A DNA stretch of 41,136 nucleotides, taken from the IMG/VR virus record IMGVR_UViG_3300042691_030165, positions 1 through 41,136 of that record; one strand, written 5' to 3'. The notes beneath the pieces were generated by a model. That model was not told where the DNA came from, did no database searches, and worked only from the letters and a program-made list of their open reading frames with translations. This DNA is from a virus. Positions 16,307 to 37,251 of this stretch are shown here, in pieces. Made by a program: the position numbers and the translations under genes. Positions within the stretch are counted from its first letter, which is position 1, and each line of letters opens with the position of its first letter.

Positions 16307-16330
16307 CATATATCCATAGGAGGATATATG
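16307..16330 (+). promoter_or_regulatory. Translation-start hairpin of the Toprim primase gene (9-bp stem, 6-nt loop)
   Basis: CATATATCC (16307-16315) and GGATATATG (16322-16330) pair perfectly around the loop ATAGGA (16316-16321). The last three bases of the right arm are the ATG start codon, and the AGGAGG Shine-Dalgarno lies half in the loop and half in the stem. Folding would hide the start codon. No T-run follows, so it is not a standard terminator. Confidence 0.7.
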
Positions 16331-17011
16331 TTTGATTGGCTTGAAGATATTTTATCTACAATGTTTGTAAGTCCTACCCACTACTCTTATTTAGTTTCTC
16401 GTGGTGTAGATGAAAATACAGGTATTATCTTTAATACCTATGACCCAGATAAAGTAAAAATCTCTATCCCTTGTCAGAGATTTGTAAGTTCTTTTGGTAG
16501 TAAAGGTGAGAGATTAAAAGACCACCTTATTATCCCTTTACATTGCCCTAGAAATAAACTTATCGGATTTGAAGCTAGAACATGGGATTCTGAAGGCAAT
16601 AAAAGAGTCCTTAAATATATGCTAGATCGTAGCCAATGGTTACCTACCCTTATCAATGCTCATAAGGTAGTTGAAGGTTTATGGAATGGCGATGATGTTT
16701 ATATAGTAGAAGGTGTATTTGATTTAGTTGCTTTACAAAAAGCTATTAAGCCTCCCCATGTAGTATGCTCTACTATGAGAGCAGGTATGGACGAAAACAC
16801 TTTTAAACTATTTGAAAGATTTTATACTCCTATGTCATCTATTTATATTTGCTATGATAATGATGAAACGGGTAAAGCTAAATCTAGTGATCTCGTAAGA
16901 AAACTAGCTAAATTAGGTATTAGGTCAGTAGAATGTAAATATAGAGGTAAAGACCCTAATGACTTATGGACTAGGGAGGGTGTCGAAGGGTTAAATAAAT
17001 ATTTTATGTAA
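16328..17011 (+). CDS. Primase, catalytic (Toprim) half
   Basis: The 227-residue protein matches the catalytic core of DnaG-type primases. Residues 67-84 (LIIPLHCPRNKLIGFEAR) resemble the segment before Toprim. The Toprim fold follows: VYIVEGVFDLVAL with the invariant Glu128, then YICYDNDETGKAKS with the D-x-D acids Asp177 and Asp179. KDPNDLW near residue 208 is the usual closing motif. It makes RNA primers for DNA replication with the replicative helicase. There is no zinc-binding domain at its N-terminus; a fitting CHC2-type domain is encoded separately at 37250. The helicase-binding domain is also absent. The start codon lies in a 9-bp hairpin. Confidence 0.85.
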   Translation: MFDWLEDILSTMFVSPTHYSYLVSRGVDENTGIIFNTYDPDKVKISIPCQRFVSSFGSKGERLKDHLIIPLHCPRNKLIGFEARTWDSEGNKRVLKYMLDRSQWLPTLINAHKVVEGLWNGDDVYIVEGVFDLVALQKAIKPPHVVCSTMRAGMDENTFKLFERFYTPMSSIYICYDNDETGKAKSSDLVRKLAKLGIRSVECKYRGKDPNDLWTREGVEGLNKYFM

Positions 17012-17036
17012 ATCTCTTTATATAGTAGGAGATTTA
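17009..17036 (+). promoter_or_regulatory. Hairpin over the ribosome binding site of the 17040 gene
   Basis: TAAATCTC (17009-17016), which includes the TAA stop of the primase half, pairs with GAGATTTA (17029-17036) across a 12-nt loop. The AGGAG Shine-Dalgarno (17027-17031) lies partly in the loop and partly in the stem. It may link translation of the membrane protein to ribosomes ending on the primase gene, since they would open the left arm. Confidence 0.5.
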
Positions 17037-17039
17037 GTT

Positions 17040-17879
17040 ATGCTTAAAAATAAAATAAGATATGCTTGTTATATAGCAATAAAGACAACACCTATGATTA
17101 AAGGTGCTAGTTTAGTAAGAAGAGATTTGAATATAAATACACTTGAGGTTTTTGGTAAACATATAGTTAAGACAGCAGGGTTTGGTGGTTTAGCTATAAA
17201 ATTAAAGCAATTATATGAAGCATTTCAGAAGATGCCTGAATACTGGACTAAATTTAAAGAGATGTTGGGGATAACAGCTACAAATACATGGGAAGCTATC
17301 AAAGAATTTGATAAGAAATTTGGTGCTTTTTTAGGAAAGGGTAAAGCACAATTAAAGTCTATGCTTTCTAAACTTGATAAAGAATTTGATGCTGTACACT
17401 TTTTTTTGAAAGCATATAATGATATGCCTACCTTTACTAATGTTATTCATTATGTAGTAGATAAGCTTCCATTATCTGTACAGAAGGTTTTAAAGGGTGT
17501 AGCTAAAAAGGTTAAGCCTTTTGCAAAATTTTTAGATGACTTATTAAGTCGTAGTCATATCTTAAAAGCTCTCTCAGTACCTGTAAAAGCATATATCTAT
17601 TGGAAGATATGGACTACTGTAACAGAAATCTCTTGGGATATTATAGATATAGCAAGAGGTATGTTGGGGATGATCTCATGGGAAGAGTTAGTAGAATCTT
17701 TACCTGAGTCAGGGGTTGGGTATTTATTAACCTTGCTTATACCTGATTTGCCGGGTGGTATGATACTTAAATCTTTAAAAATAGGTTGGAATATATTGTT
17801 ACCTGCAGCATTAGCAATTCAAATGTATTGGTTATATAAAAATAAATATGTGGATAGAAATTTAAAACCTATGGTGTAA
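17040..17879 (+). CDS. Membrane protein, unknown function
   Basis: The 279-residue protein has amphipathic helices rich in Lys and aromatic residues in the first half and hydrophobic segments in the second (VKAYIYWKIWTTVTEISW; GVGYLLTLLIPDLPGGMI; WNILLPAALAIQMYWLYK). AGGAG lies eight bases before the ATG. No family recognised. It resembles in overall make-up the proteins at 809-1909 and 39540-40547: long amphipathic N-terminal part, then two or three membrane segments. It ends inside the convergent spike gene, sharing 11 bases. Function unknown; a virion membrane-interaction role would be inference. Confidence 0.7.
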   Translation: MLKNKIRYACYIAIKTTPMIKGASLVRRDLNINTLEVFGKHIVKTAGFGGLAIKLKQLYEAFQKMPEYWTKFKEMLGITATNTWEAIKEFDKKFGAFLGKGKAQLKSMLSKLDKEFDAVHFFLKAYNDMPTFTNVIHYVVDKLPLSVQKVLKGVAKKVKPFAKFLDDLLSRSHILKALSVPVKAYIYWKIWTTVTEISWDIIDIARGMLGMISWEELVESLPESGVGYLLTLLIPDLPGGMILKSLKIGWNILLPAALAIQMYWLYKNKYVDRNLKPMV

Positions 17880-20103
17880 GATTTTGACCTCTTGGGATCA
17901 TAGTTACTACAAAAGGTGTTCCTGTAACAGGGTTTATATCACTACCACACATAATAGGACCTACTGAAGCACCTGGGCTAGATAAAGTAACAGTAGTGCC
18001 TCTTATAGCTACAGGACCTACTGATGTAATAGTAACACCTGCATTTCCTGTAATAGTAGCTACACCTGCTAAAGCAGTTAAACTTAATACCCCTGCTGTA
18101 GCTGTTAGACTAACCCCTGCGGGTGATATAACACTACTATTCCCACTCGCTATATGTGAAATTGCCCCTACTGCTACTGTTTGAGTAATAGCACCTGTTG
18201 GTATAGTCGTTGTATCTGTTAAGTTTGTTAAAGCTGTTGTTAATTTAACACCAGCTGTATATGTAGTTTGGTCTACAATACCAGGGCCACCTATAATTTT
18301 AGTATCTCTTGGGGGTACAATAGGGTTAATAGAACTAAATGCTGAACTTTGACCCCCCATAACTGTTTGTTTCATTGTATTTGTCTTTATACTTACAGAT
18401 TCACCACTATTGATTGCAAAATCACTTTGTGATGAAAAAGATAAAGAGGCAGCATTTTTTAACCTTACTGTAGGGGCATCTAAATTGATAATAGAACCAG
18501 ATTTTAAGGATATATTCCCTTTACCTTCTAATACTATACTGCTCCCATCAGCATCACCTTTAAATGTTCCTCCAGCATACATATAGATACTATTCCTATT
18601 ACTCCTAATATCTAAAGCACCGTCACCATTTAAATTAAAGCCTGTAGTTCCATATAGGATATTAGTATTCCCTAAGACCTCTAAACCTAAACCACCTTCA
18701 ATTTTAAGTCTAGCTCCTGTATCTTCTCTTGCCCCTATATATCCTCTAAAAGCACCACCCTTAGTAAAACCTACATAACTAGGACTATCATCACCTATAA
18801 TGGGTTTTATTCTAAATAAAGTAGCTAAATGGTTTTCTATATCTAAACCTGTAGCATCATCTATAATTCCTAAATCATTAGCATATAAAGGTTTACCATA
18901 TAGATTTTTACCACCTTCAGTAAAAGCATCATTACCGACTACTGTACCTAAGACCCACTCTATATAAGGAGATTTATCTGATGCACCTCTATTTTCAGGT
19001 ATACGGTCAATATCCATACCATCAGTTTGTTCTGTAACAGGTAATAAACCGTCTGTGGTGTGGTTTAATTCTATACGATATTCAGTAGCTGCTTGGTTAA
19101 AGGTCTTTTGTCCATCAACATCATATCTTAAAATAGCTTTACCCCCATAGGAATTAAAATCTATTTCGGAGGTAGATTTTAAATTTTCATCAATAAGGTT
19201 AGCTTTATACATTAACCTATATGGGTCTATAGCTTGTGTTAAGGTAGTATTAACATCTTGTTCAAAAGCAGATTTACCATCTAGGGTAGTTTTTCTAAAT
19301 AAGGGGTGTGGTTGATAAGTCCCTCTTAATGAATCAAAAGGTAATTCATCTTCTGATATGGGAGAACCATCTTCTTTAACTTGAGTAGGTCCGTCCCATA
19401 ATCGACCATCAGAAATAAGGTCATAAGGAATAATACGAGCATCTCTTTGTACCATACCGCCATAAATACGGGCACCACTCATAGCATGGAATTGTTGTAA
19501 GGATCGAACAACAAGAGCTTGGTCTTGGTCTCTTAATCTAATTTCGTTAGCTCTTCTATTAGATAATAGTACACCTTCATCAAGAACAAGGTCTGAACCT
19601 TGAGAAGAAGAAGCACCGATATTACCTGGTTCATAATGCCTCATTTTGTGACGAATACGATTAGAAACACCATCTAAATGTTTTCTATCTTTAGGTGTAT
19701 TTAATAAGCCTTCATCTTCATTAAAGGATTGTGTAGGAATCCATTCTTGACCTAGATAATATGCTTTAGGAAGCCAAGCGAGGATAGCAGGTCTTTTACT
19801 GCCTGCTGCACCTTTTGTATCGGTAGCAAACCAACCGACAACACACATATCACCAACTTCTGGGATAGCACCTAGAAAATGTCTTGAACCTATACTAGGA
19901 AATAAAAGTTCTACACCGTCATATATGGGTTCTTCAAATTCACCATCAAGGACTTTAATAGTGCATCTAAGTTCTTCCCAATTAATCATTTGAACTTTAG
20001 CAGTACCTAAAGCGAGGGCTGACCATCCTTTACTTGGGTTATTAGGTCTTAATGTACTGTTATTAAGGTTGGCTTTCATTTGCCCTTCGTTTAGTTTCAT
20101 CAT
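17869..20103 (-). CDS. Tail spike / baseplate spike protein (OB-fold plus beta-helix)
   Basis: The 744-residue protein fits a gp5/gpV-type central spike. Residues about 25-110 (RCTIKVLDGEFEEPIYDGVEL, then EVGDMCVVGWFATD and RPAILAWLPK) look like the OB-fold that connects hub to spike. The middle lists many short beta strands, and from about residue 500 the sequence becomes Gly/Ser/Thr-rich with repeated strands such as GNISLKSGSIINLDAP and TVRLKNAASLSF, typical of a trimeric beta-helix. The end, GPIMCGSDINPVTGTPF, resembles the closing motif of many phage spikes. I see no lysozyme domain. It is the last gene of the tail operon, right after the hub gene; GGGG is seven bases before the ATG pair at 20103. 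Confidence 0.8.
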   Translation of the reverse strand: MMKLNEGQMKANLNNSTLRPNNPSKGWSALALGTAKVQMINWEELRCTIKVLDGEFEEPIYDGVELLFPSIGSRHFLGAIPEVGDMCVVGWFATDTKGAAGSKRPAILAWLPKAYYLGQEWIPTQSFNEDEGLLNTPKDRKHLDGVSNRIRHKMRHYEPGNIGASSSQGSDLVLDEGVLLSNRRANEIRLRDQDQALVVRSLQQFHAMSGARIYGGMVQRDARIIPYDLISDGRLWDGPTQVKEDGSPISEDELPFDSLRGTYQPHPLFRKTTLDGKSAFEQDVNTTLTQAIDPYRLMYKANLIDENLKSTSEIDFNSYGGKAILRYDVDGQKTFNQAATEYRIELNHTTDGLLPVTEQTDGMDIDRIPENRGASDKSPYIEWVLGTVVGNDAFTEGGKNLYGKPLYANDLGIIDDATGLDIENHLATLFRIKPIIGDDSPSYVGFTKGGAFRGYIGAREDTGARLKIEGGLGLEVLGNTNILYGTTGFNLNGDGALDIRSNRNSIYMYAGGTFKGDADGSSIVLEGKGNISLKSGSIINLDAPTVRLKNAASLSFSSQSDFAINSGESVSIKTNTMKQTVMGGQSSAFSSINPIVPPRDTKIIGGPGIVDQTTYTAGVKLTTALTNLTDTTTIPTGAITQTVAVGAISHIASGNSSVISPAGVSLTATAGVLSLTALAGVATITGNAGVTITSVGPVAIRGTTVTLSSPGASVGPIMCGSDINPVTGTPFVVTMIPRGQNLTP

Positions 20104-20107
20104 CTAT

Positions 20108-23100
20108 TTACCCCTTTTTATTTTCAGTATATAAGACATTATTAGTTGCATTATTTTCTAGTGCTTTTTTTTCTTTTTGGTCAATAGCATCTAAAGTACT
20201 TGAATATGTTTCGGTAATTGTAACAAAATTCTCTTCTGCTCTATTAACAGTATTTATAAGATTATTTACAGCACCCCTTGTTGTATCTGCTAAGTTTCTT
20301 AATACAGGACTACTTTCAAGAGTATCAGCTCCACGATAGATTTCTTGTTGCTCTTTCCATCCTTTACCCTTTTCTATCATCACATCATGTAGTTTTTGAG
20401 AGAATTTATCTTCCTCAGCACCACTAAAATCTAATTTAACATACGGTGTATTATACTCATCAAGGTTTTCTAAATCTAGATCTGAGTCATACCCCCTACA
20501 TTGACATACTGAACCACTATTCTTTATACCTCCAGGTGCTATTTGATTTAATGCTCTAGGTATATTTTCAGCAACAACAAATCTATTTGTATCTTCTTTA
20601 CCAAATTTGTCTGTTTCTTGATTACTCACTATTCTATTTGCAAATTGTGTTATAAAGGCTTCTACTATCCCATCTTTATCTGCATTTTCACTATTCTGAT
20701 TTGTAATAATACCTGTAGAGTTTATAATAATGTTTCTCTCTTCTGGTGTCATTTGATTTAATGTTTCTGCTACATCATTTAATTCGGCTTTTACACCTTG
20801 TAATTGAGCAGTAGCATCTGTTACAGTCTTTAGTATCTTATATATGTTTTCAGACTGAGCTGATGTGAGAACTCTTGAATAATCCTGTTGTAATAAAGAC
20901 ATATACCCACCACCGACTTTAAGATCAAGACCCCTCCCATATGCTTGATACCCATATACCTCATAACCTTCATCATCTGATACTGGTAGTACCATACTCT
21001 TTTTTGTCTTTTCAGGTTTAATGAAGCCCTCTGGATTCTTAGCTGTTAAGGTACTATTAGGTTTATTTATAGGGGGAATTACTATTTCTGTTAATGCAAA
21101 TAGTGCCTTAGATAACTTTAGATACTCTTCTTTAGTTGTCTTAAATTGGCTTTCAGTTTGTTCTGTTATTTTTATCTTTATGTCAAAATATGCTTTGTGG
21201 TCTTCTAGAATAGCTTGCCATAGATTACCTGCTGCATATTCTAATAGTTTCTCCAATTCGTTTGTTAAATCAGTCTCCCTTTTTTCAAATTCTTTTACAT
21301 AAGTGTTCTCTTTAAATAAAGCATCTGCACTAGCAATAACAGCTTTTACTTTTGCTAGAATATCAGGATTCTCTTGTATTGTTTTTGTTATTATTATGGG
21401 GAAGAGTGTTTCTTTGGTGGCATTTTTAATGTTTATCTTGAGACCATTCTTTATAAAATCATATATAAATTGTCTTTTGATGATGTCTTTATTATCTCGG
21501 TATAGACCTGGAGGTAAACCTACCCATAATTCTTGTTTGTCTTTTTTGTTTTTAACTTTAATTGTTTTTATTAGGACATCATGTTCTTGGAAAGTAAGAG
21601 ATGTAATTTCATTGGTAGCAATAACATCAATTTGATTAGTAAAAGAATTTTTAACTTTAAGACCAGCTGTGGGGTATGCTTGAGTAAAAGTAACTAAGTC
21701 CCCATCAGTAGATGTAGGGTCTGGTACTACCATATTGACTTTATTACCGTTATATCTTTCTTCAGATGTTTTTATAAGTCTTTCACCTACACTCTTTATT
21801 ACCCCATCCTGTTCAGCAAATTCAATTTCAGTAGCACCTTGCATTTTAGGGTCAGGGTGTGAACAACTAAAATACCTAAAATAACCAGGTATATGTGGAG
21901 AGAAAGCATTCTTTTTATTAGCTAATAATTCTAAGATATTCGCAGTACTCCCCATACCTGAGGATACTTCATTTGCTCTTTGTTTATTGACCCTCATAAT
22001 ATTTATTAAATCTAATAAAGTTAAGGGAGTATTCCGTCCATCTGTAGGATTTAATAAAGTATTTGTGTATTCCTCAGAATATACAAAACTAACATTTGAT
22101 TTAGTTTGTCCTGCAACAGACTGAGTATTATTATCAACACTCGTTAAATCATTAAATGCTTGATCTCTTTGTTTTTCTACTGCTTGTCTCTTATCGGCTT
22201 TTTGTTCTGGCTTTAATGTTCCATCTCCTGCTATCTTATCTAAAGACTTTTGATAAGCAGGTATAATATTTCCTATATTTTGTTGTCCTTTAGCAATATC
22301 TGATCCTAAAATAATTCCGATTTCTCTAGATTTCCCATTCTCAACAACATCGAAGACTACAAATTTAGCATCCGCTGCAAAAGGGTCTTTAGAGCTATTA
22401 CTGTCATATTGTAAAACCCCTAAATTGAGAGCTTCAGCAATAATCATATTCTTGAAATAAGGTTTCTCTATTTCCAGAGTTTCAGTTCCCATAAAAAAGA
22501 AATTAGGGTCTATTCTAGTCATATCTATACCCATAACTACATTAGGGAAGCCTGTAACTTTAATAATTTCTTCACCTTCTATACCTGAAGTTCCAACGGT
22601 TTTTTCTTTCTTTTTAAGGTATTTAGCACCTTTATTAGTATTAATAAGATCAACAGCTTTATCAGGAGCTTCTTTATAAGAAACATTCATATCACCAGGT
22701 GGCATAAATCGTTTTCTTCTAGCTTTAATTTCAATAGTAGTGCTACAAGAAGAGCCATATGTAAAATCATGACTAACAGAAGTAACATAATAAAAGCAAT
22801 CTATATGTTCTATATATACAGGATAACCTGGTTTTAATTCAGGTCTCAGTGTGATTGTAACAGAGGCAGTTTCAGCTTCTTGATTTTGTCGATCAAGTTC
22901 AGCTGCAGCATAATAGAAAGCTGATGTAGTATTGGTATGGATATTACTATCTATTTCTAAAGGTCTCCACCCATATTTAGCTACAAGCCTATAATCTATA
23001 TAAGTAGATTTAGGAGTAATAAATTCATCATCTAAAACACCAGACATATTTTTAGTTAAAGTACCTTTAACAACAGCATATGTATATTGAGGTTCTTTAA

Positions 23101-24442
23101 CAGAAAAGTTCATACTTACAATGTCTTCAGGTTTTAAGACATAGACACGACTAGCTTTAGTGTTAAGATTATATAGGGGTGGTTTAAAGACGAGATCGCC
23201 ATCTACATCTTGATAAAATTCAAAATTGACTTTTTCAGCAACAGTAGATGCTATTTGTTGTTTAGTTTCATAAGAAGCTTCCCACATATTAATATTAGCT
23301 AGATTGCCTATATCTAGGATATAGGCTTGCATATCAGCAGTGGTAGAACCTCTTTTATCCGATTCAGATTGAGCTTCTACTTGTTTGACATCGAGTCCTC
23401 TAGATAAGATTCTAGTATTAGTCCCATCACCATCTATTTTTACTATACCCGCTCTTCTAGCAAAAGGGTCTATACCACCTAAAGGATCAGCTGTTTTAGT
23501 CTTAGATTGGTTTTTATTTTTAACATTAACAGTAGCACCTGCGACTTTATTTGTTTCCCTCCCATTAGCACTACCATAATAAACTTGTTCAAGACTAGAA
23601 AATAAACGACCTGAAGCGCCGTGCATCCTTAAACCGTACATACCTTGAGAGAATCTTCGTTCCCAATATCTTAAAGTTAAACTGAAAGCATCTTGATTCC
23701 CTACACGAGCATTAACATTAGATTTCTTGTTAATACCACCGATAACACCTTGAGCTGACCCACCAGTATCTCTAAATAAGCTATATATAATTTGATGTGG
23801 GGTTTGACCTGTGAATTTGTGACCTGTCATTGGAATACCACCAGCAGATTCACTAGGTTTTCCAGCAAAAGCAGCACCATTAGTCGTAATAGACTGATAT
23901 TGCCAAAAATATAATAAATTATTACAAGAGAAAGACCCACTATAAAACCCACCACCATAAGCATAAGAGATACTTGTAACTACACCATGAAATACAGGAT
24001 AGTAAGGTTTCATTTTAAGGTCTTTTAAGTTATACTTTTCACTATCTGGGTATTCTACTATTTCATCATTATTTAAATCTTTAACATCAAATACACCACG
24101 AATATAGATATTAACTTCAAGACCTGGGGTAATAAGAAAAGCACCATCTTTAAAGATACTGTCGCCATGATGTTTAGGGATAGAAAAACTGATATTAGCA
24201 TCACCACTACTAGCTTCTACACCTGCACCACAAGAAACTTGAGTAATATAAGGTTGGAAGTCTATTCTGTTATTACAATCTTTACAACCTACAAGTGAAG
24301 TATCCCCATTAATATAAACGAGGGCATCAGGAGCATAGGATAGTGTTTTTCTGAAGTTAGGTTTCCATAGACCTACATAGGGTCTATCTAATATTTTACT
24401 TGTAGTAGTAGCACTATTACCACCTTTAATACTGACAGTCAT
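20108..24442 (-). CDS. Baseplate hub protein with very long C-terminal extension
   Basis: The 1444-residue protein begins like a gp27/gpD-type hub: QVSCGAGVEASSGDANISF, LEVNIYIRGVFDV, and YPVFHGVVTSISYAYGGGFY give the usual early strands, and LKPGYPVYIEHIDCFYYVTS with SVSHDFTYGSSCSTTIEI (about residues 540-580) closes the hub domain. The following ~850 residues are not part of the known hub fold. They mix acidic and helical stretches with several beta-like parts and no lytic motif I can see. The gene ends next to the spike gene and begins next to the paired baseplate genes, so it should join tube, tape measure tip and spike. AGGGAG is eight bases before the ATG, which directly follows the upstream stop. 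Confidence 0.8.
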   Translation of the reverse strand: MTVSIKGGNSATTTSKILDRPYVGLWKPNFRKTLSYAPDALVYINGDTSLVGCKDCNNRIDFQPYITQVSCGAGVEASSGDANISFSIPKHHGDSIFKDGAFLITPGLEVNIYIRGVFDVKDLNNDEIVEYPDSEKYNLKDLKMKPYYPVFHGVVTSISYAYGGGFYSGSFSCNNLLYFWQYQSITTNGAAFAGKPSESAGGIPMTGHKFTGQTPHQIIYSLFRDTGGSAQGVIGGINKKSNVNARVGNQDAFSLTLRYWERRFSQGMYGLRMHGASGRLFSSLEQVYYGSANGRETNKVAGATVNVKNKNQSKTKTADPLGGIDPFARRAGIVKIDGDGTNTRILSRGLDVKQVEAQSESDKRGSTTADMQAYILDIGNLANINMWEASYETKQQIASTVAEKVNFEFYQDVDGDLVFKPPLYNLNTKASRVYVLKPEDIVSMNFSVKEPQYTYAVVKGTLTKNMSGVLDDEFITPKSTYIDYRLVAKYGWRPLEIDSNIHTNTTSAFYYAAAELDRQNQEAETASVTITLRPELKPGYPVYIEHIDCFYYVTSVSHDFTYGSSCSTTIEIKARRKRFMPPGDMNVSYKEAPDKAVDLINTNKGAKYLKKKEKTVGTSGIEGEEIIKVTGFPNVVMGIDMTRIDPNFFFMGTETLEIEKPYFKNMIIAEALNLGVLQYDSNSSKDPFAADAKFVVFDVVENGKSREIGIILGSDIAKGQQNIGNIIPAYQKSLDKIAGDGTLKPEQKADKRQAVEKQRDQAFNDLTSVDNNTQSVAGQTKSNVSFVYSEEYTNTLLNPTDGRNTPLTLLDLINIMRVNKQRANEVSSGMGSTANILELLANKKNAFSPHIPGYFRYFSCSHPDPKMQGATEIEFAEQDGVIKSVGERLIKTSEERYNGNKVNMVVPDPTSTDGDLVTFTQAYPTAGLKVKNSFTNQIDVIATNEITSLTFQEHDVLIKTIKVKNKKDKQELWVGLPPGLYRDNKDIIKRQFIYDFIKNGLKINIKNATKETLFPIIITKTIQENPDILAKVKAVIASADALFKENTYVKEFEKRETDLTNELEKLLEYAAGNLWQAILEDHKAYFDIKIKITEQTESQFKTTKEEYLKLSKALFALTEIVIPPINKPNSTLTAKNPEGFIKPEKTKKSMVLPVSDDEGYEVYGYQAYGRGLDLKVGGGYMSLLQQDYSRVLTSAQSENIYKILKTVTDATAQLQGVKAELNDVAETLNQMTPEERNIIINSTGIITNQNSENADKDGIVEAFITQFANRIVSNQETDKFGKEDTNRFVVAENIPRALNQIAPGGIKNSGSVCQCRGYDSDLDLENLDEYNTPYVKLDFSGAEEDKFSQKLHDVMIEKGKGWKEQQEIYRGADTLESSPVLRNLADTTRGAVNNLINTVNRAEENFVTITETYSSTLDAIDQKEKKALENNATNNVLYTENKKG

Positions 24443-25435: not shown

Positions 25436-25438
25436 AGT

Positions 25439-26044: not shown

Positions 26045-26046
26045 AA

Positions 26047-29000: not shown

Positions 29001-29772
29001 CTCCAAAACTTGAACCAAAACGAGAAATATCCCCAAGAGAAGACATCTTAGCAAAGCTATCTATTTGAGATTGCACTCCTTCTAAAGCCACCTTAGTTCT
29101 ATCAGCAAGGTCTCCTATGCCTTTAACGGGTTTTTTAAAAGACTCATCAGCTTTTTGCATTAAGGTATCATATGCTTTTTTACCTTCTTCTACTGTTTCA
29201 GTTAATGCTTTTCTTTTTGCCCCTTCAGCTTCCTCAAATTTTTTAACCTCAGCATCATATTGTGCTATCTTTTTTTTAGTTTCTTCTTCTTGTTTCTTTA
29301 AAGCTGCTTCTATGTTTTCGATTTCTTTAGCAGCAACTTTCTGTTGTGCATCTAGTTCCGCAATGGCTGCATGATCAGAAGCCATTGCTGCCTCCATATC
29401 TAATTTTTTCTTTTTCTCCTTTAAAGTTTTAAGTTTAGCTTCAAATGCCTGGGTCAAAGAAATCTGTTCCATCATTTCTTTGCCTTGATTTTTCATGGCT
29501 TCATTATATTTTGTTTGTATTTTTTCTAATTCTTGGATTTGTTTAGCAAAATCACTATATGCAGGTTGTGATTGGTCTGCTATTATCTTAGATAATTTAT
29601 TATTAGCATCATTAGAGTCTTTAATGATTTTTAGCTGTTTTTGTTGTTCTTGTGTTAAACTAGCTACATTGTCAGATAAATATTTAACGGCTGCTGAAAC
29701 ATCAGCTAACGATTTCACATAGGATTTAGTATCTGAGGATGACCCTCCAAATCCACCTTTATATTTTGCCAT
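26047..29772 (-). CDS. Tail tape measure protein
   Basis: At 1241 residues it is the longest helical protein of the tail operon. The first ~250 residues are continuous coiled coil (K, E, A, Q rich), followed by a Gly/Met-rich hydrophobic stretch near residues 262-305 (MKAMGGIMGKMGGGIAALGG, then LGPIGVIISIAETFM), then more helices and another coiled coil with a charged linker. This is typical of tape measure proteins, which set tail length and pass into the host membrane on ejection; using about 0.15 nm per residue the tail would be near 185 nm. TGGAG lies nine bases before the ATG. No peptidase domain is visible. Confidence 0.85.
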   Translation of the reverse strand: MAKYKGGFGGSSSDTKSYVKSLADVSAAVKYLSDNVASLTQEQQKQLKIIKDSNDANNKLSKIIADQSQPAYSDFAKQIQELEKIQTKYNEAMKNQGKEMMEQISLTQAFEAKLKTLKEKKKKLDMEAAMASDHAAIAELDAQQKVAAKEIENIEAALKKQEEETKKKIAQYDAEVKKFEEAEGAKRKALTETVEEGKKAYDTLMQKADESFKKPVKGIGDLADRTKVALEGVQSQIDSFAKMSSLGDISRFGSSFGESLQSAGANMKAMGGIMGKMGGGIAALGGALSKALGPIGVIISIAETFMQAEKDQKDFNKAILEGGGALDFMANQSDNLHDNLNTLRKGMLDYTNLTRLGMSPEEMRSALNSLQESNLTLKKMAPNASNIKQQFEGARTLIGEMKTISTVFGVGIEEVTGHVESLNMNLGKTLDDAEELRNIKSSFDQIRDAASQAGYSNKKFFSTIISVTNEVGSMNGRVAEAGSLFVKLKKLIGKKGIEIFEAVKEGYKGKSVQEKVTDVYKVGGKRTKQIIEREAITKGQSLFGGVGKTGEELSKGVYGGKQLGALESILGKDLVEGLQKGNADAIKQLAGMDTGKKADILRQIKSNENLGADVANTVQDFMVLSRGVAGNMGATIKAMEKMGMGGNLAMMVNKLNFVGLSADKLSDATLENVATQELLDQTFGENKEAVERLLMQGMGEYKNYTKLVNEFNKKGTSEGRKEEIKKELDKEGLGINAEGKLTAKGSDVAIKDFSSFIQALPERFKPLEDAMLTTSKSQEDLLQESIDATVSSSDAIGAILKEKLDFLGDLTSSIFSWISSDDEEEKKAKIAEKEKLSDEIRNKEVNLGKAKSFVRELEKDVRSATTEGEKKKALKELNEAKEGLKAKEESLNELRGQAREMRGANVKDRGTAENIRRYKEAQQLFDETQGTGADKYEAVKQKFGDRAVQEITLRKQFSDDIVEKINSGEYGGGSAVEFLKWAQENSQRIEDKSGILKYAGDYDNFYKGKMFTDEHPEYKYNLADTKKADVLDQKMASKETKKLEEETLEAEKEIQLDIATDKKALETQAIIKLETEEKVGRKYEGDHRKKFIEDSMKAAMEANKAQEAAQTEQQALKLKELYDRSGNRFDIEKIKNAIETKKALGVAGGDTRSVLDILNNAPIPTAQDLIISDKGAFRLNNKDDILAMKPGGAVEEYVKSTGGMNKGGNVTININGGDEARVFEVVKKAMKSAGVVTQGGL

Positions 29773-29778
29773 TTTATC

Positions 29779-30858
29779 TTACTCCATTGTAGGTTTTCTT
29801 TGTGCTATTTTATCCATTAAAGAAGGCTGATTGACTACAACCTTATCACCATCAACGGATAAATTCCCTTGTGTTGGTTTCATAATGAAGCTGTCTATAA
29901 TATTTCTATTGACATCATTAATATTAGGAGCTGCTATATCTTGTGGTTTAACTTTACTTCTTATTTGTTCCTCAGTTAAACCTACTAGACTTATACCTGT
30001 AATTGCACTATCTAATTCAGCTCTTTTTTTCTTATTCTGTTTTTTTATTTCCTCAGCTTGTCTGACTAATTCATCAATATGATTCTGTATATCTTCCTTA
30101 TAAGTTCTTACAATCACATCATGGTCGTCTTCTTCCCCGGAGACCCATTTTCTCATTTCTTCTTCTAAGTCTTCCATAGTCTTTTGTTTTTTTATTCTAG
30201 TTTTCTTTTTTATTTCAACACCTTCAGTTTCTTCAAAAAGACCTTTAACAGCTTGGTCTATTAAATCTTCTCTTCTTTCTAATTCTTGATTATCTTTAAT
30301 TCTCCATTTCTTTTGTACAGCTTCAACCCCTTTAGGATTAGTAGCAGAAGCTATAAAAAATGCTTTTTCCCAATCCCTATCAGACTCTATTCTTTCATCT
30401 TCAGCTTCATTCCAAATAACCCATGAGATTTGAATATTATTTAAATCTTCAAGTCTGTGTGTTGTAAAAAGACTTCTAGATTTCCATGCTTTCCATAAAT
30501 ATCTTGATTCATCAGTATAACAATAAGCTTCGAGGTATTTATTAGCATGGATTGCACGATTCATGAGACGGTGCGCATATACATACATTTTAGACAAAAT
30601 GGAGAATATTTGAGAATCCATTAGGGTTTCAAATACTTCATAGAAAAAATCTTTAGTCTCCCTACCGGATATAGAAATAATAAGTTTAGTTAATAAAGCT
30701 ACACTTCTTTCTATATTTTGGGATGAAAATTCTTCAGTCCATTCTATAATTTGCAAGTTAGGGTTTTTAATTTTAATGATGACATCATTTATTTTAAAGG
30801 ATTCTACGATAAATCCTTTTTCTATAATATTTCTTATATCTTTAAAATAATCAGACAT
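29779..30858 (-). CDS. Tail gene between tube and tape measure, possible assembly chaperone
   Basis: The 359-residue protein has an ordered first half with many aromatics (DEFSS..., KMYVYAHRLMNRAIHANKYL, SWVIWNEAEDERIES) and a highly charged helical second half. No family recognised. Position directly upstream of the tape measure gene, after another small cytoplasmic gene, is the usual place for tail assembly chaperones. I see no frameshift signal joining the two; they are separate frames 4 bases apart. The Shine-Dalgarno is weak, so translation may depend on the upstream gene. Could also be a structural tail component. Confidence 0.6.
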   Translation of the reverse strand: MSDYFKDIRNIIEKGFIVESFKINDVIIKIKNPNLQIIEWTEEFSSQNIERSVALLTKLIISISGRETKDFFYEVFETLMDSQIFSILSKMYVYAHRLMNRAIHANKYLEAYCYTDESRYLWKAWKSRSLFTTHRLEDLNNIQISWVIWNEAEDERIESDRDWEKAFFIASATNPKGVEAVQKKWRIKDNQELERREDLIDQAVKGLFEETEGVEIKKKTRIKKQKTMEDLEEEMRKWVSGEEDDHDVIVRTYKEDIQNHIDELVRQAEEIKKQNKKKRAELDSAITGISLVGLTEEQIRSKVKPQDIAAPNINDVNRNIIDSFIMKPTQGNLSVDGDKVVVNQPSLMDKIAQRKPTME

Positions 30859-30862
30859 ATAC

Positions 30863-31480
30863 TCATACCGATGGGTCTACCTTCTTTAATTGTTCAGCTA
30901 ATGTTTCATCACCTTTAATAGCGAGGGCATTAGAAGTATTTTTGACTGTAGCTTGGTCGAGTTTTCTTGTTTCTTTTTGAAATTCGAGTTGTTTAATTCT
31001 TTTTTCAAGAATTTCTATTTCAGCATCAATATCTACAACATCTATTTTTAATAGTTTGTTAGTTCGTTCTTCAACTTCTTCTGTTAAACGGCTCATTTCT
31101 TCAAAGACTTTACTTAAAAGAAGTCTAGGTAGAAATTCAATCATTTCAGAGATAGCTTGTTGTCTTGATACTTTAACTTTAACACCATTTGGTAGAACTT
31201 CATCGGTTTCAACCATATCGATATTCCTCATATCGAGGTCATCAATTTGGACGATAGCACGACTTAAAGTTTCTTTACGGACTACATCTACAAATTCGAG
31301 GGTAGTCATAGTTTCATCTCTTGATAAATCAGAGATGATTTTTTGAAGTTCAGATTCTTCTTTAGGGGTTAAAGTTCTAATAATAAGAGTATTTTCACCT
31401 AAAGAGACTTTTCTTTCGAGGTAACCAGCTTGTGTGATTTTATTCATAGCTGATTTTAATTGATTTAATGATATAGACAT
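30863..31480 (-). CDS. Small tail-operon protein, possible tail assembly chaperone
   Basis: I prefer the ATG at 31480 because GGAG lies nine bases upstream of it and only three bases from the in-frame ATG at 31486. The resulting 205 residues start SISLNQLKSAMNKITQAGYL, continue with a strand NTLIIRTLTPKEESEL, and end in a coiled coil (EIEILEKRIKQLEFQKE). The 'beta hairpin, then helices' plan with the sequence 'TPKEE' suits a small tail assembly chaperone, as does its place between tube and tape measure genes. Assignment is by context. Confidence 0.65.
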   Translation of the reverse strand: MSISLNQLKSAMNKITQAGYLERKVSLGENTLIIRTLTPKEESELQKIISDLSRDETMTTLEFVDVVRKETLSRAIVQIDDLDMRNIDMVETDEVLPNGVKVKVSRQQAISEMIEFLPRLLLSKVFEEMSRLTEEVEERTNKLLKIDVVDIDAEIEILEKRIKQLEFQKETRKLDQATVKNTSNALAIKGDETLAEQLKKVDPSV

Positions 31481-31503
31481 ATACATAATCTCCGTTAATT
31501 ATA

Positions 31504-31517
31504 AGGGTCGTCACCCT
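31504..31517 (-). other. Small hairpin between tube-like gene and next gene
   Basis: AGGGT and ACCCT, five base pairs with a four-base loop (GACG on the minus strand), lie between the stop of the tube-like gene and the start of the following gene. It is the only GC-rich element in the gap. It could slow polymerase or protect the 3' end of the tube mRNA; it lacks a T-run directly after it. Confidence 0.35.
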
Positions 31518-31523
31518 ATTTTA

Positions 31524-32309
31524 TTAGGCTGGGGTAGTAGCTTGATTAGTAGCTGCTCTAGTTTCTTGTCCTGCAGTTCTTCTAGTTCTTACACTATTAC
31601 CATACCCACCTGTAGCTAAAAATTCACCATAGGTAGTAAATAAATCGTGAACATCTGTGATATCAACATTCCCAGTTTCTTCCATTTTAGAACCTTCAGC
31701 CTCTCTACCTGGAATATCAACACCAGTCAACCAACAACCTTCAAAAAAGGTAATTAGTGCTTTATGCTGTTGATTATAAGCAGTATTAGTTTCTACTTTG
31801 GCTACACCTTGACTCGCAAAATCAATATTTACTAACCCTTGTGTTCCTCCAAACCCCCCATTTAAAACTTGCTCATCAGCCATAAAAGTAAATACCATCT
31901 GTTCTTCCATATCAAAGGGCCATCGTGTATGTGCGACTGAACGAACAGGTCCATCTACACCACCTGCAAAACCTAATGCTTGAAACATATTGCTTAGATA
32001 TAATAGAGTTCTTGTAATAGTGCCTGTAAAAGGTTCAGTTACACCAGGTACACGATCAGCAACAACATCGCCAAAACCGATACCTCTGACAACTTCTGTA
32101 CTTCTTGAACCACCTGAATAACTGAATGAACTGACTACACCTAATTGGTATCTTGTACCTGCATCACCACCATAACTGGGGGTTAAAAGTCTAATTTTTT
32201 GACTAATTACAGCACGAGAATCAGGGGACATACCATACTTATATATTTCGGATGACCCAGCAGCTCTCATTTTAGGATTGGTTCCTGGGTTTTGATCTAA
32301 ACTTGGCAT
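31524..32309 (-). CDS. Tail tube-like protein
   Basis: The 261-residue protein is Gly/Ser/Thr-rich and beta-dominated, with TRYQLGVVSSFSYSGGSRST, RGIGFGDVVADRVPGVTEPF and TGTITRTLLYLSNMFQALGF. Such a composition, moderate length and location as first gene before the chaperone-like and tape measure genes fit a tail tube subunit. TAGGAG lies nine bases before the ATG, and tandem TATAAATG elements lie upstream, as expected for a highly expressed late gene. No sheath gene is next to it, which is unusual for contractile tails. Another virion protein with a similar fold is possible. Confidence 0.65.
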   Translation of the reverse strand: MPSLDQNPGTNPKMRAAGSSEIYKYGMSPDSRAVISQKIRLLTPSYGGDAGTRYQLGVVSSFSYSGGSRSTEVVRGIGFGDVVADRVPGVTEPFTGTITRTLLYLSNMFQALGFAGGVDGPVRSVAHTRWPFDMEEQMVFTFMADEQVLNGGFGGTQGLVNIDFASQGVAKVETNTAYNQQHKALITFFEGCWLTGVDIPGREAEGSKMEETGNVDITDVHDLFTTYGEFLATGGYGNSVRTRRTAGQETRAATNQATTPA

Positions 32310-32345
32310 TTTGTTTTACTCCTATATTAAAAAAACAGTCCTATA

Positions 32346-32362
32346 CATTTATATCATTTATA
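32346..32362 (-). promoter_or_regulatory. Tandem TATAAATG elements, late-promoter-like
   Basis: On the minus strand two copies of TATAAATG (32355-32362 and 32346-32353) are repeated every nine bases, 37-53 bases upstream of the tube-like gene. They differ by one base from the T4-type late element TATAAATA. Chance occurrence in AT-rich DNA is possible. Confidence 0.35.
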
Positions 32363-32400
32363 GATACTTTATCAAAATATATATATAAAGGAGTCTTATT

Positions 32401-32901
32401 ATGAACAGTTCTGAAAAATCTTGGGGTGGCTACTCCACCCATACACTACCTACTAGAAATGCCGATACATCTCTCGAAGATGAAAGTAATATTCATTTCT
32501 TACTTAATATTTATGAAGATATTGAAAAATCAGACCCTATCTCAGGCACTGCTATTGTTGATGCCCTTATCGCTAAACAATTTAAAAAAGCTCTTTCCCT
32601 AGCGACTAAACCCAATACTATTAAATTTGTTACTACTGCTATCGAACTTAATTCTAACGGCAATAAACTAAGACTAGCTAAAAATGACCTCGTTTGTAAA
32701 CTTATTACTATCGACCTTAAAAACCAAATCCATGCTCTCGACCCCATGAATGATAGTATTGTCCTAGCTTACCTTAATAAAGGTAAATTTACAGATGCTA
32801 TCAATAGCACTTATGTCGATAAAGTTAAAGATCTTGTTAATGAAGTTCAATCTAAATACGAAAAAGAAATTAAAAACCTTAAGAGGCTATTAGAAAAATG
32901 A
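32401..32901 (+). CDS. Unknown helical protein at the start of the replication operon
   Basis: The 166-residue protein has an unstructured N-terminus, then regular helices (IVDALIAKQFKKALSLATK; AYLNKGKFTDAINSTY) and a C-terminal coiled coil. No family recognised. AAAGGAG lies seven bases before the ATG, behind a divergent AT-rich control region shared with the tube-like gene. Codons are C-rich, unlike the genes further down the operon. Its stop overlaps the next start (ATGA), suggesting coupled expression. Confidence 0.7.
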   Translation: MNSSEKSWGGYSTHTLPTRNADTSLEDESNIHFLLNIYEDIEKSDPISGTAIVDALIAKQFKKALSLATKPNTIKFVTTAIELNSNGNKLRLAKNDLVCKLITIDLKNQIHALDPMNDSIVLAYLNKGKFTDAINSTYVDKVKDLVNEVQSKYEKEIKNLKRLLEK

Positions 32902-33359
32902 TTGAAACCCAAGACATTCATCGAGTTCTTGATATTGCCACTAAAATGGCTCTCCATAAACTTGAAGATAGCTTTACTGAACTTAATAGTCCTAGAACTA
33001 TGCAACATGGTATGAGGAAATTCTATATAAAAGAATATCCCTTTATATATAGGGATAAGATTTCTTTATATCGTAATGTTTCTATTATATCTTTACACTA
33101 TGCTGAGGATATGCCTAGTAAAATACAAGATATTACAGACTTTGAAGATTACCTTGCCACTAAAGAAATTACAGATTTTATAGTATGGCTTAATACTGCA
33201 TGGTCTAAAGTTATATATAATAAAATTATGGATATGGTTAATCATAATATTATTGAGTACCAGGCTATTATAGATTCTATCAGAAATTCATCTATTCCTT
33301 GTGCTGTGAATTATTCTAATCTTTTAGATACCATTTTTAAACTAAATCATATAAGATAA
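32898..33359 (+). CDS. Unknown helical protein
   Basis: The 153-residue protein is not recognised. It starts with a helix (IHRVLDIATKMALHKLEDSF), contains several aromatic residues (YIKEYPFIYRDKISLYRN) and ends in helices. The ATG overlaps the stop of the preceding gene by four bases, so the two are probably made together. It is separated from the helicase operon by a 61-base gap with inverted repeats. Confidence 0.7.
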   Translation: MIETQDIHRVLDIATKMALHKLEDSFTELNSPRTMQHGMRKFYIKEYPFIYRDKISLYRNVSIISLHYAEDMPSKIQDITDFEDYLATKEITDFIVWLNTAWSKVIYNKIMDMVNHNIIEYQAIIDSIRNSSIPCAVNYSNLLDTIFKLNHIR

Positions 33360-33361
33360 AC

Positions 33362-33395
33362 ACAAACACTCTTTTTATATAAAGTGTGTTTGTAT
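33362..33395 (+). promoter_or_regulatory. Dyad upstream of the helicase operon, contains a copy of the promoter-region motif
   Basis: ACAAACAC (33362-33369) and GTGTTTGT (33386-33393) form an 8-bp inverted repeat enclosing a smaller CTTT...AAAG dyad. GTGTGTTTGTAT (33384-33395) is the exact reverse complement of ATACAAACACAC at 12542-12553, next to the strong promoter. This suggests a shared regulator site. A TATAAT at 33400 lies nearby, but no good -35 box is visible. Confidence 0.5.
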
Positions 33396-33420
33396 CATCT
33401 ATAATCATTAAGGATAGGTT

Positions 33421-35019
33421 ATGAGTTATTTAGACGACCCGAAACTACAACAAACAATAACAAAGCTAAAAGAGATTAGAGTAAGAACAGAACTAAAAGC
33501 ACCCCCAAGTAAAATCCTAAGAACCACTATGCCCAACGGCAGACCCCTCACCCTAAGAAATTATCAAGTTCAAGGTATTATGCACCTTTTAGCTATGCCC
33601 CGATTCGTTCTCGGAGACGATACTGGTTTGGGTAAAACGCTCCAAGCAATTTCTGCCCTCAGCTACCTATGGGACAAATACCCAGAAACCTCAGCTGTCA
33701 TTATGACTACTAAATCTGCCCTTAACCAATGGGCAAGTGAATTTGATAAATTTACTAACGGTGTAAAATGCTTTGTTGTCAGTGGTGATAAAAAGAAAAG
33801 ACAAAAAGTCTATGATGACTACTTTGCCCATACAGGTCTTAAAGTTCTTATCATGGGTTATAGAACTGCTTGTATGGACTTTGAAACACTACAAAACCTT
33901 AAAGGTCATGTCCAAATCTTTGATGAAGCTACTGCTTTTAAAAATGAAACTACCCAAGTTCACCAAGTCTGTGCTCACCTTTCAGGTGCTGCTCAAAAAG
34001 TATGGTCTTTGTCTGCTACTATTATCAAAAACAGACTTATGGAAGCATGGGCGATTTATAGAGTCACAGTCCCAGGTCTTATGCCTAGTAAAAATGTCTT
34101 TATGTCTAACTACTGTATCTGTGTAGATAAACAAATCGGTAGAAAAAGAATTAAATTCGTTGTAGGTCATAGAAAATCTGATATCGAAGCCTTTAGAATT
34201 AAAATCGATCCCTATTTTATTGGTAGACCTAAACATGAAGTTGCCCAAGAACTACCTCCTTTAACTACTAAAAGAATTGAAGCTCCTTTATCTGATGTCC
34301 AAATCTCTAAGTATAAAGAAGCATTAAGTGGTATTTTAGAGAAATATGATCCTACAACAGGTGAAATGACAGAAAAAGAGGTAACTAAACTTACTGCTGT
34401 TATGTATTGCCAACAAATTGTAAATCATCCTGAACTTGTAGATGTTAAAGGGGATAGTGGTAAATTAGAAATTCTAATGGAATTACTAGAAGAAGAACTT
34501 GATGGTGAAAAGGTTATTATCTTCTCTCGCTTTAGAAAGATGATTGACATCTTAGATAGAGAATTGACTGCTAAGGGAATTAAGTGTGTTAGGATTACAG
34601 GTGGGGAAAAAGATGATGAGAGAAAGAAATCTCAAGAGTCCTTTCAAGATGAAAAATCAGATGTAAGAGTAGTATTGATTACAATGGCTGCAGCTGAAGG
34701 TGTTAATTTACAGTTAGCTAAAGCAACTATCTTTTATGATAGTCCTTGGAGTGCTGGGGATTATTTACAGATTATAGGTAGAATGATTCGTATCGGTAGT
34801 ATTCATGATCGTGTATATTGTTATCACTTAGTATGTCCCAAGACAGTAGATGATCGTGTTATGAAAGCCTTACATAATAAAATGGATTTAATAGAAAATG
34901 TTTTAGGAAAAAGGCTCAAAAATGATGAAGAATCCGATAAGATAATAGGTGTTTCTGAGAATGAACTCAAAGACATCTTTAATGATCTAGTACAGGATGC
35001 TAAAGAAAATGCCAGATAA
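33421..35019 (+). CDS. SNF2-type DNA helicase/translocase
   Basis: The 532-residue protein has the two RecA-like lobes of SNF2 family enzymes. Lobe 1: Q-motif-like RNYQVQGI (47-54), motif I GDDTGLGKT (65-73), motif Ia around IMTTKSALNQW, motif II DEAT (168-171), motif III SAT (198-200). Lobe 2: KVIIFSRFRKMIDIL, LITMAAAEGVNLQ, and motif VI QIIGRMIRIGS (450-460). These bind and hydrolyse ATP and move along double-stranded DNA; small SNF2 proteins of phages probably help fork restart or recombination. There is no nuclease or HIRAN domain, so it is a minimal form. It heads the replication operon and its end overlaps the next gene. Confidence 0.9.
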   Translation: MSYLDDPKLQQTITKLKEIRVRTELKAPPSKILRTTMPNGRPLTLRNYQVQGIMHLLAMPRFVLGDDTGLGKTLQAISALSYLWDKYPETSAVIMTTKSALNQWASEFDKFTNGVKCFVVSGDKKKRQKVYDDYFAHTGLKVLIMGYRTACMDFETLQNLKGHVQIFDEATAFKNETTQVHQVCAHLSGAAQKVWSLSATIIKNRLMEAWAIYRVTVPGLMPSKNVFMSNYCICVDKQIGRKRIKFVVGHRKSDIEAFRIKIDPYFIGRPKHEVAQELPPLTTKRIEAPLSDVQISKYKEALSGILEKYDPTTGEMTEKEVTKLTAVMYCQQIVNHPELVDVKGDSGKLEILMELLEEELDGEKVIIFSRFRKMIDILDRELTAKGIKCVRITGGEKDDERKKSQESFQDEKSDVRVVLITMAAAEGVNLQLAKATIFYDSPWSAGDYLQIIGRMIRIGSIHDRVYCYHLVCPKTVDDRVMKALHNKMDLIENVLGKRLKNDEESDKIIGVSENELKDIFNDLVQDAKENAR

Positions 35020-35698
35020 GAATTGTCCTAAGTGTAAAGGATACGGTTTTACTTTAACAGAAGAAGTTTACATGGGGAGTCCTGTGACTGTTTCTTGTGT
35101 ATGTATGTTAAAAGAAGCTTTAAAGCTACAATGTGAAAAAGCATGGAAAGACTTATCTTCTGTACCTGTAGATCGTAAAAGTCCTATGATAGGCAAGATG
35201 AAAGAAAATCTTAGATTAATAGCTAGTCAAAATGAATTAGCTATACACCTAAGAACAGCGATATTAAGTGAAAGAAACCCTACTCTTAATATCCGAGTAG
35301 TATCTGATGCTACTTTAATTAGTGCATGGCTCTCTAATGTGAGTGATGAGAATAAAGTAGATCCTGATTTAATTAGGGATATTAATGTAAGGGGGTTAGA
35401 AGATTTAGCAGAAGCACCTGATTTATTGATTGTGAGATTAGGTGTTAAGAGGGCTAGAAATTCAGCTACAAGTGAAGTTTTAATTGAAACTATTGAATTA
35501 AGACAGCATTTAAATAAAGCAACATGGATTGTAGAAGAGCCGAATAAACCTTTACAAGAGGGTCATTTAGCTTGGTCAAGTGCATTAGAAGATACACTCA
35601 ATGGGTGGAAAATCTATAATGTGAATGGTGCTGATTCTTTTGCTACTGCTAAAAAGAAACCTAATTTAAGTTTAGACTTTAAGAAAGTACAACTATGA
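34997..35698 (+). CDS. Helicase-loader-like protein lacking Walker A
   Basis: The 233-residue protein (a later start at 35009 is possible) begins with a zinc-ribbon-like CPKCKGYGF...VSCVC (C10, C13, C34, C36). Residues about 72-112 (NELAIHLRTAILSERNPTLN, IRVVSDATLISAWL) and 139-180 (EAPDLLIVRLGVKRARNSAT, EVLIETIELRQ, TWIVEEP) follow the order of DnaC/DnaI-type AAA+ loaders: strand, 'sa-x-x-l', then a Walker-B-like strand and 'N-x-x-x-s-e-v-l-x-x-x-i-x-x-R'. The phosphate-binding loop G-x4-GK[ST] is missing and the acidic pair of Walker B is changed to 'VRLG'. A non-ATPase loader for the DnaB-type helicase next door is a fair inference; starts and stops overlap on both sides. Confidence 0.65.
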   Translation: MLKKMPDKNCPKCKGYGFTLTEEVYMGSPVTVSCVCMLKEALKLQCEKAWKDLSSVPVDRKSPMIGKMKENLRLIASQNELAIHLRTAILSERNPTLNIRVVSDATLISAWLSNVSDENKVDPDLIRDINVRGLEDLAEAPDLLIVRLGVKRARNSATSEVLIETIELRQHLNKATWIVEEPNKPLQEGHLAWSSALEDTLNGWKIYNVNGADSFATAKKKPNLSLDFKKVQL

Positions 35699-37218
35699 AA
35701 ATCCTAAGAAGTGTTATACCAGATACTAGAGTAGGGGATGACCCTAATCAAATGGTAGTAAATTATAGTGTATTGAGAGATAGCATTTATGCTTTTGATA
35801 GTTCCGAAGATGGCAAAATTTGGGATTATGTAAAAACATTTATGGCAAATCATGGGCATTTGCCTGATCAAGATACACTTGTTAAGCATTTTGAATCCCA
35901 AACGGAGATTGAAGTTGCTGATAGAGTAAGAGTCTTAACTGCTGTTAATCCTATCTATAAAGGGGATTTTGTATCTGAACTTGAATTACAAGTAGAATCA
36001 GTAAGAGTAAAAAGACTACTCCAAGTAATGAATGAAGCTAAAGACATCGTTCGTTCAGGTGTAGAAGTAAAAGAACAAGGTAAAAAGAGAATCCTTAAAG
36101 GACCTCGTGATGCTAGTCGTTATTTATCAAATAACTTAGTTGATATTTTAACACCTACTTTTGGTTCTCGTATCGGTGGTGAAGCGATGACTGATATAGG
36201 TGATTTGAAAGATCAATATACAAAAGCACAAGCTAGTGGTAGAGAGATTTTACCTATTAGTGGACTTAAACCTATAGATGATGCTTTAGGTGGTTTCAGA
36301 AAGAAAGAATTGTATATCTTAGCAGGGTTTACAGGTCATATGAAATCTAAGAGTGCTATTAACTTTGTATATAACCAAGCTGTTATGAGTGTAGTAAATA
36401 CAAGTACTCTTTATTTCAGTTTAGAAATGCACTATGATCAATGCCGTAGAGCAATTCATACAATTCATTCTATGCACCCTAAATTTCGGGCTCAAAGAAT
36501 AGCTTTAGGTTTACAAGATGCTTCAAGTCCTGTAGATTTTGGTATTGATCCCGTTAAATTGAGAAATGGGTGTTTAAGTCCTGAGGAATATACATTCTAT
36601 TTTGATTATGTATTACCTGATTTAGAGTTAGGTAGGACTAAAGGTACTTATGGAGCAATTCACTTTGAGGGGGATAATCCTGATAGCTTTGATTTTACAG
36701 TAGAAGATTTAAAAGCTAAAGCTGAGATTTATGCACAAAAAGAGAAGATTGATTTAATTGTAGTAGACCATGCTTTATTGTTATCTAGTCGTAATAGATA
36801 TAGTTCAACTACAGAAAAGTTGAATGAAGTGATTAGAGATTTAAAGAGATTAGCAATGAATTTCAATCGTGGTCAAGGTATACCTGTGTTGTGTTTATTT
36901 CAGATTAATCGTGAAGGTTATCAGCACGCGTTAAAGAATAAAGGTCAATACAATTTAACTCACTTGTCTTATGCAAATGAAGCTGAGAGATCAGCAGATG
37001 TTGTGATAGCAAATTGGTTTGGGGATGATATGAGAGCCCAGAATTGTATTCAGTATCAGTGTTTAAAGAGTAGAGATCAAGCACCATTTCCTACATTTCA
37101 ATCGAATGTAGCATTTCCTACGGGTAAGATTTATAGTCCTAGTAGTTTGCCTATAATGAGTATAAATAAGAGTACTGGCAATCAATTAGCAGATGATCCA
37201 TTAAGTGATGTGTTATAA
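35695..37218 (+). CDS. Replicative DNA helicase, DnaB family
   Basis: The 507-residue protein is a RecA-like SF4 helicase. An N-terminal helical region (to about 130) is followed by ISGLKPIDDALGGFRKKELY, Walker A GFTGHMKS (211-218), the FSLEM strand (241-245), Walker B KIDLIVVDHALLL (351-363) and the late motifs VLCLFQINREGY and SYANEAERSADVVI. Such ring helicases unwind DNA at the fork and recruit primase. It is preceded by the loader-like gene (ATGA overlap) and followed by the zinc-binding primase half, a normal replication set. The Walker A has His-Met in place of the more usual Pro-Gly-x before the Lys. C-terminal part extends to the end without extra domain. Confidence 0.9.
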   Translation: MKILRSVIPDTRVGDDPNQMVVNYSVLRDSIYAFDSSEDGKIWDYVKTFMANHGHLPDQDTLVKHFESQTEIEVADRVRVLTAVNPIYKGDFVSELELQVESVRVKRLLQVMNEAKDIVRSGVEVKEQGKKRILKGPRDASRYLSNNLVDILTPTFGSRIGGEAMTDIGDLKDQYTKAQASGREILPISGLKPIDDALGGFRKKELYILAGFTGHMKSKSAINFVYNQAVMSVVNTSTLYFSLEMHYDQCRRAIHTIHSMHPKFRAQRIALGLQDASSPVDFGIDPVKLRNGCLSPEEYTFYFDYVLPDLELGRTKGTYGAIHFEGDNPDSFDFTVEDLKAKAEIYAQKEKIDLIVVDHALLLSSRNRYSSTTEKLNEVIRDLKRLAMNFNRGQGIPVLCLFQINREGYQHALKNKGQYNLTHLSYANEAERSADVVIANWFGDDMRAQNCIQYQCLKSRDQAPFPTFQSNVAFPTGKIYSPSSLPIMSINKSTGNQLADDPLSDVL

Positions 37219-37227
37219 TAATATAAT

Positions 37228-37251
37228 ATAGTAGTAAGGAGATACTACTAT
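37228..37251 (+). promoter_or_regulatory. Translation-start hairpin of the primase zinc-finger gene (9-bp stem, 6-nt loop)
   Basis: ATAGTAGTA (37228-37236) and TACTACTAT (37243-37251) pair perfectly. The loop, AGGAGA (37237-37242), is the Shine-Dalgarno, and the first two bases of the ATG (37250-37252) belong to the right arm. The geometry equals that at 16307-16330 although the sequences differ. No T-run follows. Confidence 0.75.

Follow-up and report, generated by a model that had tools for sequence, protein, structure and literature searches.

The stretch of viral DNA analysed here, which we call the window, is 41,136 nt long and encodes a DnaG-type primase whose CHC2 zinc ribbon and Toprim domain lie on separate proteins (Table 1). 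The gene identities given in the preliminary description of this DNA are borne out by profile searches: the Toprim half matches Toprim_2 (E 2.9e-11) as well as phage DnaG primase profiles, and the zinc-ribbon half matches Zn_ribbon_DnaG (E 1.4e-8). LR745208.1, a phage of 485 kb, is the nearest named relative for both halves; its primase is split too, and the halves are likewise far apart. The split itself is already known, a standalone zinc ribbon and a DnaG Toprim protein having been described in group 2 jumbo phages (Iyer et al. 2021, PMC7824862), and no difference between that zinc-ribbon/Toprim split and the one in the window is shown. A zinc-half homologue in G010 (locus L039, 74796–75311) contains one in-frame TAG, which may reflect TAG recoding or an error. 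Elsewhere in the window, an ORF at the contig end (40544–41128, minus strand) matches PHROG 9582, 'dehydrogenase' (E 4e-62).

Table 1. Start hairpins of the window, the genes that they precede and adjoining promoter-like boxes (SD, Shine–Dalgarno sequence).
Feature	Position	Strand	Details
Toprim-half start hairpin	16305–16332	+	11-bp perfect stem, 6-nt loop
Toprim half of DnaG-type primase, 227 aa	16328–17011	+	Pfam Toprim_2, PHROG 47 DNA primase
TATAATA, probable -10 box, abutting or overlapping Toprim-half left arm	16299–16305	+
Zinc-ribbon-half start hairpin	37228–37251	+	9-bp perfect stem, loop AGGAGA = SD
Zinc-ribbon (CHC2) half of DnaG-type primase, 172 aa	37250–37768	+	Pfam Zn_ribbon_DnaG
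TATAATA, probable -10 box, abutting zinc-half left arm	37222–37228	+
Start hairpin of gene 17040–17879	17009–17036	+	TAAATCTC-12 nt-GAGATTTA
279-aa protein, function not assigned	17040–17879	+	family found across clade
Start hairpin of gene 1958–3454	3459–3486	-	AAACTCCT-12 nt-AGGAGTTT, SD in right arm
498-aa protein, function not assigned	1958–3454	-	conserved N-terminus SDEEKKEIYDKW

Both halves of the primase begin within a perfect inverted repeat. The Toprim-half hairpin (AACATATATCC-ATAGGA-GGATATATGTT) carries half of the SD AGGAGG (16318–16323) in its loop and the whole ATG (16328–16330) within its right arm, and in the zinc-half hairpin (ATAGTAGTA-AGGAGA-TACTACTAT) the right arm covers the AT of the ATG, to whose G the fold adds a U.G pair. 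The preliminary description had reported two 9-bp hairpins here; its positions, its 6-nt loops and its placement of the SD stand, as does the 9-bp stem of the zinc half, but the Toprim-half stem is longer by two pairs. The primase hairpins are the tighter look-alikes of the set described below, sharing a 6-nt loop, a right arm that reaches into the ATG and a TATAAT directly before the left arm, and both start about 9 nt after the stop codons of the upstream genes. Overall folding energy does not set the two leaders apart, their MFE z-scores over 60 nt being only -2.8 (Toprim half) and -1.8 (zinc half); the unusual feature is the perfect stem at the start.

Two other window genes, at 17040–17879 and 1958–3454, also carry start hairpins. 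The Toprim stop codon lies within the left arm of the first; the product of the second gave no match in searches of Pfam and PHROG. When perfect stems of at least 8 bp that include the SD were counted against shuffles in which the SD and ATG were held fixed, 4 of the 17–18 leader genes of the window had one (0.17–0.19 expected). Four hairpin genes drawn at random from 17 would include both primase halves in about 4 per cent of cases (C(15,2)/C(17,4)), a figure judged after the fact, and a striking look-alike pair can be two of many, the primase halves being two of the four hairpin genes in the window. A small hairpin (AGGGTGACGACCCT) also precedes the SD in the leader of window 30863–31486 (minus strand); it is kept in G001, the closest relative of the window, and shortened in G002.

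The excess extends to related large phages. Gene starts in the window and its relatives were taken from a simple in-house caller rather than from curated annotation, and since counts of the anti-SD hexamer (TCCTTT) include the SDs of divergent neighbours, the final statistic was limited to tandem genes, those whose upstream neighbour lies on the same strand. Inverted repeats of at least 9 bp centred at -35 to -5 were found at 2 of 11 such genes in the window (0.07 expected from dinucleotide shuffles), 3 of 22 in G002 (0.13), 5 of 63 in G004 (0.30), 10 of 123 in G022 (1.03) and 7 of 114 in G018 (0.27), or 27 start repeats against 1.8 expected over the five, an excess of about 15-fold. For G004 and G022 the excess appears in this looser -35 to -5 test; an initial scan, in which the repeat had to contain 4 nt of the SD, showed none in these two genomes. 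Stretches shifted 150 bp upstream or 100 bp downstream stay near background, the repeats peak positionally at the gene start, and the stems often pair the SD directly. Many unrelated genes in the relatives carry such hairpins, with loops of 4–15 nt, and across the clade they stand before about 5–20 per cent of leader genes. Among control genomes, the scan recovered soc of T4 unprompted, together with the start of the 44836–45612 gene (annotated I-TevII), and found no start hairpins in Staphylococcus phage K. A related arrangement occurs in G002, where the divergent genes at 79228 (minus) and 80361 (plus; loci L049–L050) share a 21-bp perfect inverted repeat bearing both SDs.

It might be expected that DNA of 33 per cent G+C, in which other 9–10 bp repeats lie inside genes, would yield hairpins of this kind by chance, or that the repeats act at the level of DNA as operators or terminators. 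Such an account is very improbable: the excess over shuffles and shifted controls recurs in five genomes, one of which (G018) has 47 per cent G+C and stems of up to 18 bp, the repeats keep a positional register with the SD, and orthologues agree in having them (p = 0.009; see below). Nor do the primase hairpins have the form of an intrinsic terminator, a G+C-rich stem followed by a T-run, the letters after their stems being TGATTGG and GAGTTTAAG. Start hairpins are more frequent than chance, and they most likely control translation.

Conservation in relatives has two sides. At the primase starts themselves, a survey that covered 19 distinct starts of the Toprim half and 7 of the zinc half finds the hairpins retained in G001 only. 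The zinc-half leader of G001 is identical to that of the window, and its Toprim stem persists, pair 9 alone having changed, from C-G to T-A, together with an AT insertion. In G002, whose primase halves have 83 per cent and 67 per cent protein identity, the start structures are different or weak, with a hairpin of 8 bp that precedes the Toprim SD and, at the zinc half, no more than a 6-bp stem; several of the surveyed Toprim starts that have no hairpin overlap or closely follow the end of the upstream gene. The other two families keep their hairpins more widely. Those before gene 17040 have 8 bp in the window, 9 bp in G002 and 15 bp in G018, with unrelated stems; the family has an interrupted start hairpin in G001, and in G004 (108770–111338) it is present as three tandem copies, of which one has a start hairpin of 12 bp. 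Orthologues of gene 1958 have start hairpins with differing stems in G002, L053, L054, L056 and L058, and a 455-aa gene has one in G004, G022 and G018. Of 221 orthologue pairs with leaders, both members bear a hairpin in nine, where permutation gives 3.43 (p = 0.009). Orthologues that share start hairpins with different stems indicate that the geometry is kept while the sequence turns over, and the earlier statement that geometry and not sequence is kept therefore holds beyond the two primase genes.

The preliminary description had gone further and seen in the pair a shared translational switch, worked by temperature, a phage RNA-binding protein or ribosome feedback, that keeps the two primase subunits in step. 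This does not agree with the hairpins on two other window genes and on many unrelated genes of the relatives, and a conserved switch specific to the primase is set aside, since related primase starts without the hairpin, which that description had itself named as telling against its proposal, are what is found outside G001. Nor is there reason to think of an RNA thermometer of the FourU or ROSE type: the window has no Rfam match, there is no UUUU pairing, and the SD bases either pair with CC or stay unpaired. An RNA-binding protein of phage or host that represses both halves together, with the hairpins as its operators, would suit the two genes of one enzyme and the presentation of the SD in a 6-nt loop by both. 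Apart from the SD, however, the loops ATAGGA and AGGAGA and their stems have no sequence in common, which speaks against a single protein that reads the loop; unrelated genes bear similar hairpins with loops of varied length, the pair is not kept in relatives beyond G001, and tblastn finds no homologue of RegA (nor of T4 gp55 or gp33). A common protein operator is accordingly unlikely. A specialised ribosome containing a phage-encoded bS21 was also considered, and no Ribosomal_S21 was found in nine records.

A promoter may be part of the element. TATAATA adjoins the left arms of both primase hairpins in the window and in G001, the TATAAT before the Toprim-half hairpin is invariant across the window, G001 and G002, and a second TATAATA at 37214–37220 overlaps the stop codon upstream of the zinc half. 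With the primase genes left out, the G002 leaders contain seven sense copies of TATAATA (1.97 expected, P = 0.002) and three antisense copies (2.06 expected). One conserved TATAAT in the window has a canonical TTGACA 17 bp upstream (12510–12575, plus strand, with conserved GTGTGTATAATACAAACACACTAAC; kept in G001 and G002). Enriched and strand-biased in leaders as it is, and with this conserved copy behind a TTGACA, the TATAATA of this subclade is probably a -10 box. A TATAAT directly before the left arm is confined to the primase genes; the one before gene 1958 is too far upstream to truncate the hairpin, and gene 17040 has none. In G018 another box, TTTAT[AG], abuts 9 of 12 hairpins, the figure for the other leaders being 22 of 136 (p = 3.8e-5), and if it is a -10 box, transcription would start at the edge of the left arm with most of the stem retained. 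The leaders of G022 and G004 have strand-biased TTGCAA and AGTGTTAT elements, a likely promoter pair of that subgroup.

A sigma-like protein of 207 aa (PHROG 1740) is encoded in G018 at 270787–271407 (L092 13387–14010). G004 and G022 have homologues of it at about 35 per cent identity, and two proteins with sigma-70 region 2 occur in G024; no sigma factor match was obtained in the window, G001 or G002, all of which are fragments. A phage-encoded multi-subunit RNA polymerase was sought as well, and none was found.

A start at the left-arm edge in G018 might be taken to mean that these are 5'-terminal hairpins which stabilise or process the mRNA as a barrier to RNase, with the SD inside them by proximity. 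This is distinctly unlikely, as the repeats peak at the SD itself, stems often pair it, and a stem of 9–18 bp over the SD would block translation too.

For the primase halves a T4-like scheme can be drawn up; its start sites, its read-through RNA and the repression that it supposes are inferences. RNA that runs on from the upstream gene would contain both arms and be translated little. From a promoter with its TATAATA against the left arm, transcription would start 6–8 nt downstream, inside the arm, and the shorter mRNA, with most of that arm missing, would leave the SD free; translation of each primase half would in this way be tied to the timing of its own promoter. Modelling puts the cost of opening the Toprim start site at 13.1 kcal/mol in the full leader and at 5.6 kcal/mol in an RNA that begins at -18; for the zinc half the two figures are 9.7 and 3.8 kcal/mol. 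That the hairpins are selected RNA elements which, in long transcripts, conceal the SD and the start codon, the primase ones being T4-like with a promoter in the left arm, is a reading for which we judge the balance to be even.

Plain translational damping, or coupling to the upstream genes, would do without an internal promoter, finishing ribosomes helping to open the hairpin. Coupling is the likelier variant for gene 17040, whose left arm carries the Toprim stop codon, and the short distance of the primase hairpins from the upstream stops would fit it, as would the hairpin genes that have no promoter-like box. As an account of the whole set it is somewhat unlikely: TATAATA abuts both primase hairpins and TTTAT[AG] most of those in G018, and a ribosome that has arrived at the upstream stop would get no further than the base of a primase hairpin.

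If sequestration with promoters in the left arms is the right reading, there may be a genome-wide timing layer across the clade, in which dozens of genes, among them both primase halves in the lineage of the window, are silent in read-through RNA and are switched on by phage-sigma promoters in the left arms, while the hairpin sequence turns over. This is a tentative proposal and less likely than not. If true, such a set in a clade of large uncultured phages, recognised from sequence alone and with an endolysin and a homing endonuclease among its genes, would suggest that timing by hairpin is a recurrent device of large phages reliant on the host RNA polymerase, and a start hairpin would be a sequence marker for genes that must not be made too early. 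Replication genes are normally early, and as the primase genes sit with them, 'late' may be the wrong class.

Hairpins of the T4 type are on record at the starts of a few genes of T4 and related phages, and a literature search for published start hairpins of this kind returned T4 reviews only. In T4 the genes e, soc, 49 and I-TevI begin in hairpins whose 5' strand contains a late promoter (reviewed in PMC3014915), and mobE of Aeh1 has one of like kind (cited in PMC3014915). The operators of T4 gp43, RegA and gp32 are likewise regulatory structures near the SD of a phage replication gene; unlike them, the window hairpins share no loop sequence, and the search for RegA gave no homologue. The differences from the T4 start hairpins lie in the box, which is TATAATA or TTTAT[AG] and not the late box TATAAATA, absent at the primase starts; in the sigma-like protein of the relatives, which differs from gp55; and in the presence of hairpins on replication genes and on some 5–20 per cent of the clade's leader genes. 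There are likenesses too. The SD, the AUG or both lie inside the start helix at both primase halves, and a promoter-like box adjoins the left arm, where transcription would start. The modelled opening costs are similar, those of T4 falling from 15 to 4.7 (e), 16 to 3 (gene 49) and 14 to 5 (I-TevI) between full and shortened RNA, and the endolysin and homing endonuclease classes carry hairpins in G018 as in T4. The hairpins of the window's clade are most likely T4-type sequestering hairpins in a new clade.
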